This document shows positions 9,478 to 28,486 of a stretch of 64,000 nt of DNA, one piece after another. The DNA is taken from assembly GCF_029504395.1 (NCBI RefSeq), contig NZ_JAQFIF010000003.1, positions 1 to 64,000 on the forward strand. Reading direction: 5' to 3'. Position 1 is the first letter of the stretch, and each line of letters starts with the position of its first letter. Below the pieces are notes generated by a model. The model was not told the origin of the DNA. It made no database searches and saw only the letters and a list, made by a program, of their open reading frames with translations. This stretch comes from Arthrobacter sp. ES3-54 (GTDB taxonomy: Bacteria; Actinomycetota; Actinomycetes; Actinomycetales; Micrococcaceae). Position numbers and translations under genes: made by a program.

Positions 9478-9537
9478 ATCGGCTGCTCCGTAACCGCCCT
9501 TTTGGACCCCCAGAACGGCAGTTACGGAGCAGCCGAT
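9478..9537. terminator. Bidirectional hairpin between convergent ald and oxidoreductase
   Basis: A perfect 17-bp inverted repeat has arms 9478-9494 (ATCGGCTGCTCCGTAAC) and 9521-9537, separated by 26 bases that can pair further. It fills the gap between ald and the leftward oxidoreductase stop at 9544, where a shared terminator is expected. It could also be a copy of a dispersed REP-like element, which needs a genome-wide search. Confidence 0.7.
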
Positions 9538-18422: not shown

Positions 18423-18456
18423 GCCCTCCGCAACTCGCAGACTCCGCTCTACACAT

Positions 18457-18499
18457 CCCCGAGGCCCCCGGCAGCATGCAGCTGCCGGGGGCCTCGGGG
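18457..18499 (+). terminator. 18-bp stem terminator after the flavin reductase
   Basis: A perfect 18-bp stem (18457-18474 with 18482-18499) with a 7-base loop begins 35 bases after the stop codon. There is no U tract (ATTCC follows), as with other actinobacterial hairpin terminators. Confidence 0.8.
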
Positions 18500-18580
18500 A
18501 TTCCGGACCACCCGCGGCCGGCGCCGCGGATGGCGGCTTGACGACGAACCTTTGAAAACAATCGTTTCCTCCCGTGCAAC

Positions 18581-19894
18581 ATGGGTAGTATCCTTGGGTC
18601 TGTGACCCACGAAACACTTGATGCCGCCGCAGCAGTACTTCCGGCCGAGGCCATTGACGCAATCGAACGTGCGGCTACGTCCGCCCACCGCCACGAGATC
18701 CTGTTCTCGGAGCGCGCAGCAAATATCAAACAGTCGGCAGTCCGGGACGTCTTCGACATCTCGATGCGCCCCGGCCTCGTTTCACTCGCCGGCGGAAGCC
18801 CCTACCTGCAGTCCCTGCCGCTGGAACGCCTCGGCCAGACCGCCGCGAAGATCATCGCCGAGCAGGGCATGACCGCCCTGCAGTACGGCACCGGCCAGGG
18901 CACCGAGGAACTCCGCGCCCAGATTTGCGAGGTTATGGCAGCAGAGGGGATCCTCGACGCCGATCCCGCGAACATCGTGATTACGGCCGGTTCGCAGTCC
19001 GCCCAGGATGTGGCCGCCAAGGTCTTCTGCAATCCAGGAGATGTGGTGCTCGTCGAGGATCCCACCTATGTGGGCGCCCTCAACACGTTCGAGGCCTACC
19101 AGGTGGGAGTCGAGGCCGTGCCGATGGACGGCGACGGCATCGTCCCGGACCTGCTGGAAGCGAAAATCGCCGCCCTCCAGACCGCAGGCAGAAACGTCAA
19201 GTTCCTCTACACCATCCCCAGCTTCAACAACCCGTCCGGCATCACCCTGTCGGCAGAACGCCGGCAGGCAGTGGTGGATATATGCCGAAACGCGAATATC
19301 TTGGTGCTGGAGGACAACCCCTACGGCCTGCTCCGCTTCGACGGCAAGCCGCTGACCCCTTTGCGGGCAGCCAACCCGGACGACGTCATCTACATGGGGT
19401 CCTTTTCCAAGATCTTCGCCCCGGGCCTGCGGATCGGCTGGGCCCTCGTCCCGGCCCACCTGCAACGCCGGTATTACCTGGCATCAGAGGCCGTTACCCT
19501 GTGCCCGCCGACCCTGAACCAGATGCTGGTATCGGCCTATCTGCGCGAGTACGACTGGCGCGGCCAGATCGAGACATACCGCGGGCTGTACAAGGAACGC
19601 TGCGACGCAATGCTTGCTGCCCTGGCCGAATACATGCCGGACGGACTGAGCTGGACCCAACCCGACGGCGGTTTCTTCGTGTGGGTCACGCTGCCCGAAG
19701 GCGTGGACACCTACCCGCTGCTGAAGAAGGCCATCGACGCCGGCGTCGTCTTCATCCCGGGAGCGGCCTTCACGCCGTCGGATGACAACTCGAACAAGAT
19801 CAGGCTGGCGTTCAGCGCGGTGCCGCCCGAGGCGATCCGTGAGGGCGTGCGGCGGCTCGCGCCGGTCCTGCGGGAAGCGTTGGCCGCACTGTAG
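18581..19894 (+). CDS. PLP-dependent aminotransferase, 2-aminoadipate/LysN-MocR class I fold
   Basis: A cytoplasmic aminotransferase of 437 residues. YGTGQGTEELR (about 107-117) and PSFNNPSG (about 215-222) match the fold-type I PLP class. The Schiff-base lysine is in MGSFSKIFAPGLRIGW near residue 277. Close relatives are annotated as 2-aminoadipate or valine-pyruvate transaminases; the substrate is not evident. The start is uncertain. The ATG at 18581 has no Shine-Dalgarno, and a TAGTAT box (18586-18591) lies 10 nt before an in-frame GTG at 18602, which may be the true near-leaderless start. It is monocistronic. Confidence 0.88.
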   Translation: MGSILGSVTHETLDAAAAVLPAEAIDAIERAATSAHRHEILFSERAANIKQSAVRDVFDISMRPGLVSLAGGSPYLQSLPLERLGQTAAKIIAEQGMTALQYGTGQGTEELRAQICEVMAAEGILDADPANIVITAGSQSAQDVAAKVFCNPGDVVLVEDPTYVGALNTFEAYQVGVEAVPMDGDGIVPDLLEAKIAALQTAGRNVKFLYTIPSFNNPSGITLSAERRQAVVDICRNANILVLEDNPYGLLRFDGKPLTPLRAANPDDVIYMGSFSKIFAPGLRIGWALVPAHLQRRYYLASEAVTLCPPTLNQMLVSAYLREYDWRGQIETYRGLYKERCDAMLAALAEYMPDGLSWTQPDGGFFVWVTLPEGVDTYPLLKKAIDAGVVFIPGAAFTPSDDNSNKIRLAFSAVPPEAIREGVRRLAPVLREALAAL

Positions 19895-22675: not shown

Positions 22676-22703
22676 GCCGCCCGGGCCAAGCGGTCCGATA
22701 CTG

Positions 22704-22744
22704 ACGGAACCCCGCCACTGAATGGTTCAGCGGCGGGGTTCCGT
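22704..22744 (+). terminator. Intrinsic terminator after the small membrane-segment gene
   Basis: Arms ACGGAACCCCGCC (22704-22716) and its complement (22732-22744) pair perfectly, with an inner CTGAA-TGG-TTCAG stem. The 3' side continues CGTCGTTTCGCTCTT. This is the strongest intrinsic terminator in the window. Confidence 0.85.
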
Positions 22745-22772
22745 CGTTTCGCTCTTGGCCGCGGCCCGGGTG

Positions 22773-22903: not shown

Positions 22904-24460
22904 TCAGTCCAGCAGCAGTGCGGGCTCCTCCAGGATGGCGGCGACGTCGGCCATGAAACGGGCAGACAGGTCACCGTCCACCACCCGGTGGTCGAAGGAG
23001 CCGCCGAGGGTGGTGATCCACCGCGGAATGACTTCGCCGTCCAGGACCCAAGGCTTTTGCTTGATAGTGCCGAACGCCACGATCGCGACCTCGCCCGGGT
23101 TGATGATCGGCGTGCCGGTGTCGATCCCGAGGGCGCCGATGTTGGTCACGGTGAGCGTGCCGCCCCGCATCTGGGCGGGCTGGGTCTTGCCGGCCCGAGC
23201 CGTGGTTGCGAGCTCGTTAAGAGCCAAGGCCAACTGCTTGAGCGAAAGGTCCTGGGCGTTCTTGATGTTCGGCACCATCAGTCCGCGGGGCGTGGCGGCC
23301 GCGATGCCCAGGTTCATGAAGTGCTTGACGTGGATCTCCGCGGAATCGCTGCCGTCCGGATTGTCCACCCAGGTGGCGTTGACACTCGGGTTTCGCGCCG
23401 CGGCCCAAATGACCGCCTTGGCAAGGATCAGCAGCGGGGAGACCTTGATGCCTTCGAAGTCGCGGGAGGCCTTCAGGCGCTTGACGAATTCCATGGTGCG
23501 GCTGGCGTCGACGTCGACAAAGATGCTGACGTGCGGCGCCGCAAAAGCCGATTCGACCATGGCTTTCGCGGTGGCCTTGCGGACGCCCTTGACCGGGATC
23601 CGCTCGATCCGCTGGTCCTGCGGGCGGCCGGACTTGCCCCAAAACGAGTCCGCCTTGTCCACCTCGGCGTCACGCTGGGCCTGATAGCTCACCAGGTCCT
23701 CACGGGTCACTTCACCGCGGGCGCCGGTGGGCACGACGTCGGCCAGGTTGATCCCGAGGTCCCGGGCGATCTTGCGGACCGGCGGCTTGGCCAGCACCTT
23801 GCCGACCAGGCCGCTGATGGCACCGCCCAGCGTGGGGCGCAGGTCAACGGAATCGGCCGGACTGGCGGCCTCCGCAGCCGGGTTGCCGACGGCGGCCGGG
23901 CTGATCCAGATGTCGTGGGCCTCTCTCCCCACCCGCTCCCTAACCTCGCTAGCTCGGCCAGGGAACCCGGCGGGCGTGGCCCCAGGCTCTACCACGTGGG
24001 TTTCGTTGCGGGCGGCCGAAGTGGCCGCCGGGGCCGATATCCGCCTCCGGCGCTTGACGGCGTCGGCCTTGGGACCGGAGCCCACAAGCGGGCCGCCGGC
24101 CGGGCGTCCGGCTGCTTCGCCGGCGTCGGGCGTGTCAGCCGGCAGCGTGCCGTACATGGGCGCCGCGGCGGCAGGTGCCGGGGCAGCAGGTGCCGGCGTG
24201 GTCGGCTCGGGGGCGGCGACGGCGTCGCTCACGCTGATGATCGGCGTGCCGACATCCACCGTGACTCCCTCGGGAACCAGCAGTTCCGTGACCGTCCCCG
24301 CGAAGGGCGAGGGCAGTTCCACCAGGGACTTGGCCGTCTCGATCTCGCACAGGACGTCGTTGATGGCCACGGTATCGCCGGGCTTGACCTTCCAGGCGAC
24401 GATTTCGGCCTCGGTCAGCCCTTCGCCGACGTCGGGAAGATTGAACTTGTTGAGCGTCAT
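22904..24460 (-). CDS. bkdC: Dihydrolipoamide acyltransferase (E2) of a branched-chain 2-oxoacid dehydrogenase
   Basis: The 518-residue core subunit transfers acyl groups from E1 to CoA. Domains in order are one lipoyl domain with the lipoylated lysine at about Lys44 ([15 protein letters not shown]), a long Ala/Pro linker, a peripheral-subunit-binding domain near residues 255-290 ([19 protein letters not shown]) and the catalytic domain ending with [14 protein letters not shown]. The linker region (about 85-230) is longer than usual. It follows E1-beta by 9 bases. Branched-chain rather than pyruvate specificity is inferred from the alpha2beta2-type E1 partners. No E3 gene is nearby. Confidence 0.9.
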
Positions 24461-24469
24461 GGGTCCTCG

Positions 24470-25450
24470 TCAGTACGCCAGGGCGCGGTCCAGCGCCTCA
24501 AGGATGCGGTCGATGTCCGGCAGGTAGTCTTCTTCGACCTTGGCCACGGGATAGGGCATGTGGAATCCTCCGACGCGGATGACGGGAGCCTCCAGCGAAT
24601 GGAACGCCCGTTCGCTGATCCGGGCGGCAATTTCGCCGCCAATGCCGCCGAACGTGGGGGCCTCGTGGGCCACGATCAGCCGGCCGGTCTTCTGGACCGA
24701 TGCCGTGACGGTGTCGAAGTCGATCGGCGAGATGGAGCGGAGGTCGATTACCTCGACGCTGTGGCCGTCCTCGGCGGCGGCCTCCGCCGCCGCCAGGGCC
24801 ACGGGCACCAGCGGCCCGTAGACGACGACGGTGGCGTCGGTTCCTTCACGGAGCACATGGGCCTTGAAGGGGTCCGCGGACGCGCCGGGGGTCTCGGTGT
24901 CGACCTCGCCCTTGAGCCAGTAGCGGCGTTTGGGTTCGAAAACGATGACGGGATCCTGGCAGTCGACGGCCTGCTGGATCATCCAGTAGGCATCGTGCGG
25001 ATTGGACGGCGTGATGATGCGCAGGCCGGCCGTGTGGGCGAACAGCGCCTCCGGCGATTCGGAGTGGTGCTCGATCGAGCCGATGCCGCCGCCGTACGGG
25101 ATCCGGATGACAACAGGAACGGTAAGGTTGCCGTTGCTGCGCGAGTGCATCTTGGCCAGCTGGGTGGTGATCTGGTTGAACCCGGGGAACACGAAGCCGT
25201 CGAACTGGATCTCGCAGACAGGCTGGTAACCGCGCAGGGAGAGTCCGATCGCGGTGCCGATAATGCCGGATTCGGCCAGCGGCGTATCCACGACACGGTC
25301 GGCGCCGAACTCGGCGATCAGACCGTCGGTGACCCGGTAGACGCCGCCGAGGGCCCCGATGTCCTCGCCCATCAGCAGCGAGCGGGGGTTGTTGTTCAGC
25401 GTGGCCCGCAGGCCCTCGTTGATGGCTTTCGCGATGGTCATAGTGGTCAT
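24470..25450 (-). CDS. bkdB: 2-oxoacid dehydrogenase E1 component, beta subunit
   Basis: A 326-residue transketolase-like subunit that completes the thiamine-diphosphate site with the alpha chain. It begins TMTIAKAINEGLRATLNNNP and includes GEDIGALGGVYRVTDGL and DTPLAESGIIGTAIGLSLRGYQPVCEIQF, all typical of BkdB/PdhB. It ends with the interface segment FHMPYPVAKVEEDYLPDIDRI. Its ATG overlaps the alpha-subunit stop by one base, which implies coupled 1:1 synthesis. Confidence 0.93.
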   Translation of the reverse strand: MTTMTIAKAINEGLRATLNNNPRSLLMGEDIGALGGVYRVTDGLIAEFGADRVVDTPLAESGIIGTAIGLSLRGYQPVCEIQFDGFVFPGFNQITTQLAKMHSRSNGNLTVPVVIRIPYGGGIGSIEHHSESPEALFAHTAGLRIITPSNPHDAYWMIQQAVDCQDPVIVFEPKRRYWLKGEVDTETPGASADPFKAHVLREGTDATVVVYGPLVPVALAAAEAAAEDGHSVEVIDLRSISPIDFDTVTASVQKTGRLIVAHEAPTFGGIGGEIAARISERAFHSLEAPVIRVGGFHMPYPVAKVEEDYLPDIDRILEALDRALAY

Positions 25451-26727: not shown

Positions 26728-26772
26728 ACCGTCTCCTTGCTTGCCGCATCCGAATGCGCCGCGATCGCTGGG

Positions 26773-26814
26773 ATATATGCCGGACTGGGAATACATTCCC
26801 AGTCCGGCATATAT
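26773..26814. promoter_or_regulatory. 42-nt near-perfect palindrome in the bkd leader
   Basis: Arms of 20 bases pair without mismatch (26773-26792 with 26795-26814) around a 2-base centre; the middle reads GGGAAT-AC-ATTCCC. It lies 46 bases upstream of the bkdA ATG. A leftward TAAAGT box at 26833-26838 would put the transcript start just before it, making it an operator roadblock or an RNA hairpin. It has no U tract on the coding side. Length and symmetry suggest two or more dimeric regulators or a cruciform; the binding protein is unknown. Confidence 0.75.
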
Positions 26815-26874
26815 TTTGGCTTACTGGTCCTTACTTTATCCGCACGGGGCGGACTGAACGTGCCGTGTTAAGCG

Positions 26875-27993
26875 CTAGGAACGCTGTGGCGGTTTTGTAT
26901 AGATTGCACAGAGCTCCAGGAACCGGGTGTTGGCTTCCGCTTCGCCGATGCTGACCCGGACGCCCTCGTTGCCGAAGGCGCGCACGGACAAGGCTCGCTC
27001 GGCCGCCAGGGCGGCGAATTCCGCACTGTTTGCGCCCAGATTGAGCCAGACAAAGTTGCCCTGGGCCTCCGGAACGAACCATCCGAGCTCCCGCAGTCCG
27101 GCCGTGACCCGGTCCCGTTCGTCCACCAGGCTTTGTACCCTTTCTACAACGTCAGCGAAGTGCTCGATCGACGTGACGGCAGCAGTTTCCGCGATTTGGG
27201 AGACCGCGAAGGGTGTTGCGGCGACCCGCAGGTGCTGCGTTAGGTCGGGCCGGGAGACGCTGTAGCCCACGCGGAGTCCGGCGAGGCCGTGCGCCTTCGA
27301 GAACGTCCGCAGGACGACGACGTTGGGGTACTTGCGGTACATCGCGATGCCGTCCACAGCGTCGCCGGCCCGGACGAATTCCTGGTAGGCCTCGTCGATG
27401 ACCACCACGACGTCGGCCGGAACGGCGTTGATGAAGCGCTCCGTTTCTTCCGTGGTCAGGATGGGTCCGGTCGGGTTGTTGGGCGTGCACAGCAGGATCA
27501 TCCGGGTCCGGGCGGTCACTGCGGCGGCCATGGCGTCCAGGTCATGCCGCCCCTCGGCCGTCAGCGGGATCCGGACGCTCTCGGCGCCCGCCAGCCCAAC
27601 GCAGATCGGGTAGGCCTCGAAGGAGCGCCAGGCGTAGATGACTTCGTCGGTCTTGCCGTCGTCGTTCTGGCCGGCGAAGGTGGCCAGCAGCTGGTTGAGG
27701 GCGCCCAGGCTGCCGGCGCCCGTGACGATGTCCTCGGCGGGAACATCCAGGAAGCGGGCGAGCGATTCGCGCAGCTTGCTGCTGAGCGGATCGGGGTAGC
27801 GGTTGAAGTCGGTCTGCGCCGCGATGGCCTGCTGCACTGCAGGGATCGGGGGCAACGGGTTTTCGTTGGAGGACAGTTTGTAGCTGACCAGGCCTTCCAC
27901 GGGGGCGGGCGGTTTTCCGGCCGCGTAGCGGGGGAGGAGGTCTACCACCGGACGGGGCCTGATGCCCCCGGCCGGGTTCTCTGATGAAGTCAT
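26875..27993 (-). CDS. Aminotransferase, histidinol-phosphate/aromatic (HisC/Pat) family
   Basis: A 372-residue fold-type I PLP enzyme. It has KLSSNENPLPP (about 38-48), the TPNNPTG motif near residue 170, DEAYQEF (about 200) and the Schiff-base lysine in RTFSKAHGLAGLRVGY near residue 235. Family members act on histidinol phosphate or on aromatic amino acids (Pat). The lack of other his genes and the place upstream of a branched-chain/aromatic oxoacid dehydrogenase favour a catabolic or aromatic role. The ATG is 7 nt after TAGGCT (28001-28006, leftward), a leaderless configuration. 147 bases with a separate palindrome and promoter separate it from bkdA. Confidence 0.85.
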   Translation of the reverse strand: MTSSENPAGGIRPRPVVDLLPRYAAGKPPAPVEGLVSYKLSSNENPLPPIPAVQQAIAAQTDFNRYPDPLSSKLRESLARFLDVPAEDIVTGAGSLGALNQLLATFAGQNDDGKTDEVIYAWRSFEAYPICVGLAGAESVRIPLTAEGRHDLDAMAAAVTARTRMILLCTPNNPTGPILTTEETERFINAVPADVVVVIDEAYQEFVRAGDAVDGIAMYRKYPNVVVLRTFSKAHGLAGLRVGYSVSRPDLTQHLRVAATPFAVSQIAETAAVTSIEHFADVVERVQSLVDERDRVTAGLRELGWFVPEAQGNFVWLNLGANSAEFAALAAERALSVRAFGNEGVRVSIGEAEANTRFLELCAIYTKPPQRS

Positions 27994-28099
27994 GCCAACT
28001 AGCCTACTTCGGGTCGCTAGTGCTGTTGGGGGATGGCCGCTGCCGCAAGGGGGAAGATGGTCCCTGCCGCCGTCGCTGGGCGTATGACAGCATGGGGCC

Positions 28100-28486
28100 A
28101 TGCGCTCATTCATCGTACGAGTCATCATCAACGGGCTGGCCCTGTCAATCGCCTGCTGGATCCTCACCGGGCTGGATATTTCCACCCAGAGCGACGGCAC
28201 CATCAGCCTCATCCTGGGCTACCTGTTCATCGGCCTGATCTTTGGCCTGGTCAATGCCTTCGTCAAGCCAATCGTCAGCATCCTGTCGCTGCCGATCACC
28301 ATCCTGACCCTGGGCCTGTTCACGGTGGTCATCAACGCGGCGATGCTCTACCTGACGTCCTGGATCAGCGGTTACACCACCGTGCACTTCACCATCGACT
28401 CGTTCTTCTGGACGGCCGTGTTCGCCGCCATCATCATCAGCGCGGTGTCCCTCGTGGCCAGCTTCCTTCCCGCCCTCGACCGCTAG
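28100..28486 (+). CDS. Phage holin family (holin superfamily IV-like) membrane protein
   Basis: A 128-residue protein with four hydrophobic segments (about 3-20, 32-50, 58-80, 95-120). It carries the family pattern LGYLFIGLIFGLVNAFVKPIVSILSLPITILTLGLF, where PI-LPITILTLGLF is the hallmark of the widespread YvlD/mycobacterial 4-TMS group. Despite the name these are chromosomal membrane proteins, not part of a prophage. The last 50 bases overlap antisense with the hydrolase gene at 28437. Confidence 0.85.
   Translation: MRSFIVRVIINGLALSIACWILTGLDISTQSDGTISLILGYLFIGLIFGLVNAFVKPIVSILSLPITILTLGLFTVVINAAMLYLTSWISGYTTVHFTIDSFFWTAVFAAIIISAVSLVASFLPALDR

Follow-up and report, generated by a model that had tools for sequence, protein, structure and literature searches.

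A predicted operator of four half-sites in the leader of a bkd-type operon, conserved in Micrococcaceae

The interval upstream of an oxo-acid dehydrogenase operon in Arthrobacter sp. ES3-54 raises a simple question: what is a long, perfectly paired palindrome doing just ahead of the first gene? The stretch of DNA analysed here, called the window, comprises 64,000 nt (contig NZ_JAQFIF010000003.1, positions 1 to 64,000). The element lies between a hisC-like aminotransferase gene (26875..28212, minus strand; the open reading frame as listed, its true start uncertain) and the ATG of an E1 alpha gene (bkdA-like, TIGR03181; 25450..26727, minus strand). The latter heads an operon that continues with the genes for E1 beta (24470..25450, minus strand) and E2 (22904..24460, minus strand). 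The original prediction described this as a branched-chain oxoacid dehydrogenase operon, and its Pfam domains are E1_dh, transketolase and 2-oxoacid_dh. The branched-chain function is plausible; NCBIfam names E1 alpha as E1a pyruvate dehydrogenase, with a score (411.8 bits) just over the cut-off of 411.35. In Micrococcus luteus, mutants assigned one E1/E2 cluster to branched-chain oxoacid dehydrogenase (PMC5857589). The operon of the window may provide primers for branched fatty acids of the membrane, or it may serve the breakdown of branched-chain amino acids.

Two other features of these gene neighbourhoods can be recorded here. A PLP aminotransferase at 18581-19894 of the window is near the operon in several genera; its nearest NCBIfam model, a MocR-type regulator, scores below cut-off, and Pfam finds no DNA-binding domain in it. 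Paralogous E1-alpha genes (about 50% identity) at four loci (L175, L176, L181 and L183) have a leader with a CRP-like TGTGA-N6-TCACA or a near form of it, and at L181 and L183 an AsnC/Lrp-like frame, recognised by eye, is divergent from the paralogue.

An inverted-repeat search of the window confirmed the near-perfect palindrome of 42 nt that had been noticed at first. Its 20-nt arms (26773-26792 and 26795-26814) are 100% complementary around a 2-nt centre, and on the bkd strand, taken from 26814 to 26773, it reads ATATATGCC GGACTG GGAAT GT ATTCC CAGTCC GGCATATAT. The expected chance count of such arm pairs in 64 kb is about 6e-8 (4^-20 x 64,000), a figure from uniform-base arithmetic and not from shuffles. 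Because the window contains further long inverted repeats, for example with arms of 28 nt at 89% and of 21 nt at 100%, the length of the palindrome is not decisive by itself; its conservation is. Near-perfect long inverted repeats with short loops also occur at 9478-9537, 18455-18501 and 22703-22745, and are perhaps terminators.

The original prediction hung on the fate of the element in relatives, and upstream of bkdA it is neither absent nor randomly diverged. All of the best 80 of 493 bkdA protein matches, which are Arthrobacter/Pseudarthrobacter-type loci, have it a short way upstream, and 25-28 of its 28 word positions are unchanged. With the spacers left free and at most three mismatches of 24, it was found in 135 of 295 Micrococcaceae genomes and 14 of 32 genera, one copy each. 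An order-wide search with looser ATKCC words matched 20 of 396 genomes, all among the 35 of Micrococcaceae, and none of the 361 genomes of other families in the order. The patterns of both searches are strict, and differently spaced forms escape them. At 62 whole-genome loci, which were picked by the motif (one site appears twice and one is the window's own), the site always stands just before bkdA, and in 61 of them hisC is upstream too. Locus L136 has another gene, by eye a D-alanine ligase-like frame, in place of hisC and retains both the element and the -10-like box described below; the element thus goes with bkdA. A bkdA-like gene is present in each of the 24 genomes chosen for lacking a strict match, though some of them have just a paralogue, and two (G233 and G274) match the looser pattern of the order-wide search. 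Among genomes of this kind, degenerate forms of the element were recognised by eye in the leaders of L156, L157, L158, L159, L160 and L164, and no form was seen in the short hisC-bkdA gaps of L167 and L169. No publication on this operator was found among the titles listed by a literature search whose sources lack most subscription journals.

The same searches bear on the idea that the element is a dispersed repeat or mobile element, there by chance. It is palindromic, but each genome holds one copy, at bkdA in every locus inspected. In the whole 4.77-Mb genome, the 20 fixed core positions give a single match at up to three mismatches, so the check for further copies left the original prediction standing. 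We give a dispersed repeat almost no credence. When the element is searched with its own spacers, again at up to three mismatches, it is found in only 8 of 198 genomes of the genus, because the spacers vary.

Conservation does not act on the 42 nt as one paired structure. Arms that pair over all 20 nt are present at 4 of 142 loci, or 3 of the 127 distinct sites, and the spacers are fully paired in 14 of 142; the perfect pairing of the arms is an accident of strain ES3-54. The conserved pattern across the 127 distinct sites is ATATATGCC-N6-GGAAT-N2-ATTCC-N6-GGCATATAT, with 1.71 bits per column in the outer words, 1.78 in the inner words and 0.27 in the spacers. These sites derive from 142 loci, among them the window's own, in two collections whose overlap counts some genomes twice. 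Columns 4-6 of the outer word ATATATGCC (26806..26814, minus strand) and columns 37, 38 and 40 of the outer word GGCATATAT (26773..26781, minus strand) are invariant in the 127 sites. The left spacer (26800..26805, minus strand) carries 0.19-0.45 bits per column and the right spacer (26782..26787, minus strand) 0.12-0.36. Parsimony assigns 3.7 changes per column to the words, 39.9 to the spacers and 30.9 to 47 fourfold columns of bkdA, which may be held back by codon bias.

The words form two abutting 16-bp palindromes of the type ATKCC-N6-GGMAT, with centres 18 bp apart and four half-sites. From column conservation in sets of 81 and 127 sites, we predict a promoter-proximal dimer site, ATGCC-N6-GGAAT (26795..26810, minus strand), and a gene-proximal one, ATTCC-N6-GGCAT (26777..26792, minus strand). 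This layout agrees with the original suggestion of a regulator larger than one dimer. In several genera the outer half-site ATGCC is replaced by ATTCC, the same as the inner half-sites, which fits one protein reading all four. Several loci of genus g32 have a degenerate inner half-site on the left.

In all 142 loci a TANNNT hexamer lies 9-26 nt upstream of the site, compared with 19% of mononucleotide shuffles that have any in that interval. The promoter-like one among such hexamers (mostly TAAAGT, TAGGCT, TAGAGT or TACAGT) is found 13-20 nt upstream of the site, at a distance that varies. In the window it is TAAAGT (26833..26838, minus strand), as originally proposed, 18 nt before the palindrome. 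Transcription would then probably start near 26826 (26825..26827, minus strand), about 7 nt after the box, and the site would span roughly +13 to +54. The -10-like box at every locus supports the earlier placement of the element in the leader; a consensus promoter scan reported no sigma-70-type promoter here and no -35. A ribosome-binding site, AAGGAG (26733..26738, minus strand), can be read from the sequence and is seen in relatives. The distance from the element to the bkdA ATG (26727-26725) is 45 nt, one less than the 46 first given.

A long stem between two co-directional genes could also be a terminator or attenuator of hisC. As originally observed, however, no T tract follows the stem on the bkd strand, and a terminator scan named no site there. 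The element also lies downstream of the conserved -10-like box and persists without hisC in L136. A terminator, moreover, would hardly be expected to have a sequence conserved from genus to genus. This explanation is very improbable.

What the sequences show is fixed words, a layout of four half-sites, a single copy and a placement after a -10-like box. A DNA-binding protein that reads four equal half-sites just downstream of the start explains most simply why the words are fixed and the spacers free. Our main reading, to which we assign a probability of roughly two in three, is that two adjoining dimer sites make the element (26773..26814, minus strand, 42 bp) a DNA operator, at which the bound regulator represses the operon. 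The four half-sites would probably be occupied by two paired dimers, or by a tetramer, of a sequence-specific protein. Because the element begins about 13 nt after the predicted start, the bound protein is most likely a repressor, which would hinder promoter escape or early elongation, and it would leave once its ligand signals a need for the complex. Binding, oligomeric state, repression and ligand are all inferred. ARG boxes, Lrp sites and NrdR boxes are likewise palindromic, often tandem and bound by oligomers; their half-site sequences and spacing are not known to match those of the element. If the reading is right, it provides a precise candidate operator sequence, conserved over a bacterial family, with which the search for the regulator becomes a simple pull-down.

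Several observations count against the main reading: the -10-to-site distance varies, no -35 was found, the left inner half-site is degenerate in several g32 loci, the genome has no second full operator, and the searches for a regulator and a regulon, described below, yielded neither. A further one is that the two spacers co-vary, which a pure protein-DNA model does not predict, and the G-U excess in the outer words, given below, also belongs here. Their pairing is 0.528, compared with 0.318 in shuffles, none of 2000 of which reach the observed value. In simulations along the bkdA tree, started from a random or a fully paired root, mean pairing was 0.317-0.334 and none of 500 runs at any of three rates reached the observed 0.522, so relatedness does not explain the spacer pairing. 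The effect depends on register, as slid registers give only 0.18-0.29. Changes at partner positions also coincide in sister pairs (0.343; of 400 simulations at each rate, 0 reached this value at rate 4, 3 at rate 6 and 60 at rate 8).

Such covariation would be expected of an RNA hairpin in the 5' leader that governs how the bkd mRNA decays or is translated. The leader fold is very stable (-45.1 kcal/mol, z -4.56), and the element is transcribed if the -10 box is right. Mismatches in the outer words also comprise 36 G-U and 6 A-C pairs. Of the former, 19 are at the outermost pair (column 1), without which the counts are 17 and 6. An origin of this excess in a single clade was considered and rejected, since beyond the 19 of 36 at column 1 the rest are spread. 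The excess points either to a function of the RNA or to a preference of the protein for particular bases. On the other hand, the words are fixed and do not co-vary, and G-U is not in excess over A-C in the spacers (94 vs 75, P = 0.33) or in the inner words (4 vs 8). Few loci have fully paired spacers, and the rate of change in the spacers equals or exceeds that at fourfold sites, which counts against a hairpin because a strongly selected one should change more slowly. The ribosome-binding site is outside the stem and unpaired in the centroid structure; in the minimum-energy fold, two of its bases are paired. An Rfam search returned four matches at E <= 1, none above its gathering score. The hairpin had been one of the functions first proposed; the outer-word bias speaks for it, while the fixed words and the lack of G-U bias in the spacers make it the less likely option, and we consider it unlikely overall.

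Spacer covariation could also be caused by weak selection on a hairpin or by template switching between the arms. Work in E. coli has examined template switching of this kind (PMC7202029), and it has been put forward for RNA stems (PMC8794818). It might keep the arms alike without function. At rate 6, the simulation rate that reproduces the observed number of changes, the arms showed no enrichment of adjacent changes (0.271 vs 0.267, reached in 168 of 400 simulations; 4 of 400 at rate 4). Bursts confined to one arm numbered 2 against 0.6 expected, a count reached in 45 of 400 simulations. The clustering expected of multi-base arm conversion was thus not seen at the fitted rate. A more specific form of the operator model, which we offer tentatively and hold to be possible at best, is that a bkd-specific dimer-of-dimers repressor, from a family new to this pathway, reads the four ATKCC words, while neutral spacers are re-matched by template switching. 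The element would then be a protein-binding site with RNA-like covariation and no RNA function, a warning that covariation in a palindrome need not mean RNA structure.

By eye, no regulator gene lies beside the operon in the window, and none is common to the bkd neighbourhoods of 12 loci from six other genera. Two other genera have a LuxR/GerE-type gene near the operon, at three loci in all (L127, L129 and L130). Single sites of the form YATKCC-N6-GGMATR number 10-14 per genome in six genomes, two of them being the bkd operator, against 0-1 per genome for a reversed-pattern control. As that control is probably biased, no regulon is claimed. Of 55 single sites outside bkd, 54 were inspected (all except G173:C1:4531082), and 40 of these lie inside a gene by our own gene calls. 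One site (L192) immediately precedes a LysR-type gene, and does so in a single genome. Neither a regulon nor a common regulator gene emerged from the 54 sites in six genomes. Four loci (L188, L201, L212 and L236) contain, at about 1501-1548, a hairpin-like stretch beside a uvrA-like gene, in which CGAGTTTCAG stays constant while the flanks change; at three of these loci it precedes a HAD phosphatase-like gene (gene names by eye).

The architecture itself suggests one family. Tandem operators of the IclR family, to which GenR and the tetrameric TtgV belong, resemble the element as tandem palindromes with that centre distance, and the TtgV operator is about 42 bp long. The regulator might then be a tetramer of the IclR family, which would make the element a tandem operator of IclR type and this idea one particular version of the operator model. 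Many IclR members, though not all, are reported to have tandem sites with centres 18-22 nt apart, a range that includes the 18 bp seen here, and GenR sites (ATTCC-N7(5)-GGAAT) have the half-site ATTCC in common with the element (PMC8222616). The IclR consensuses given there are GKTYCRYW3-4RYGRAMC or TGRAACAN1-2TGTTYCA (PMC8222616). The element (ATKCC-N6-GGMAT) matches neither; unlike them, it has an N6 spacer without A/T preference, and its outer half-site is mostly ATGCC.

The IclR proteins themselves were also compared. The set comprised matches of at least about 38 bits in six motif-bearing genomes together with the 15 IclR proteins of the strain's own genome, which with the loci returned by the search made 77 proteins; weaker hits were left out. 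For only one of the 15 is the best hit reciprocal in every one of the six other motif-bearing genomes. Three motif-lacking genomes yielded 3, 4 and 2 IclR proteins, from the loci returned by the search only, so that absences there mean little. The gene for the one common protein is divergent from a leuC-like frame, seen in seven of nine loci, the exceptions being L251, where none was found, and L296. We take the protein to be NdgR/LtbR and the divergent frame LeuC. No ATKCC-N5..7-GGMAT lies between the two in the loci inspected, and the only matching words (L336 and L272) stand over 440 bases upstream, on the far side of the point where the leuC-like frame begins. A regulator does not have to act on its own gene, and an IclR protein that is non-orthologous or was missed could be the regulator. 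The IclR lead is not supported by these comparisons, and we judge it distinctly unlikely. A TCTCANATNTTGAGA-like palindrome precedes the leuC-divergent, NdgR-like IclR gene in L306, L316 and L272, and is perhaps its own operator.

Palindromes of another type are found in other Micrococcales families. CTACG-N4-CGTAG-type sites lie upstream of the bkdA-like gene in 10 of 21 loci (L276, L277, L278, L280, L281, L284, L287, L289, L290 and L291), and in none of 1050 shuffles. They differ from the predicted Micrococcaceae operator in half-site, spacer and distance, and occur around none of the 142 Micrococcaceae sites. Like that operator, they are palindromic and placed in the leader of a bkdA-like gene, and seven loci have two of them, 15 nt apart.
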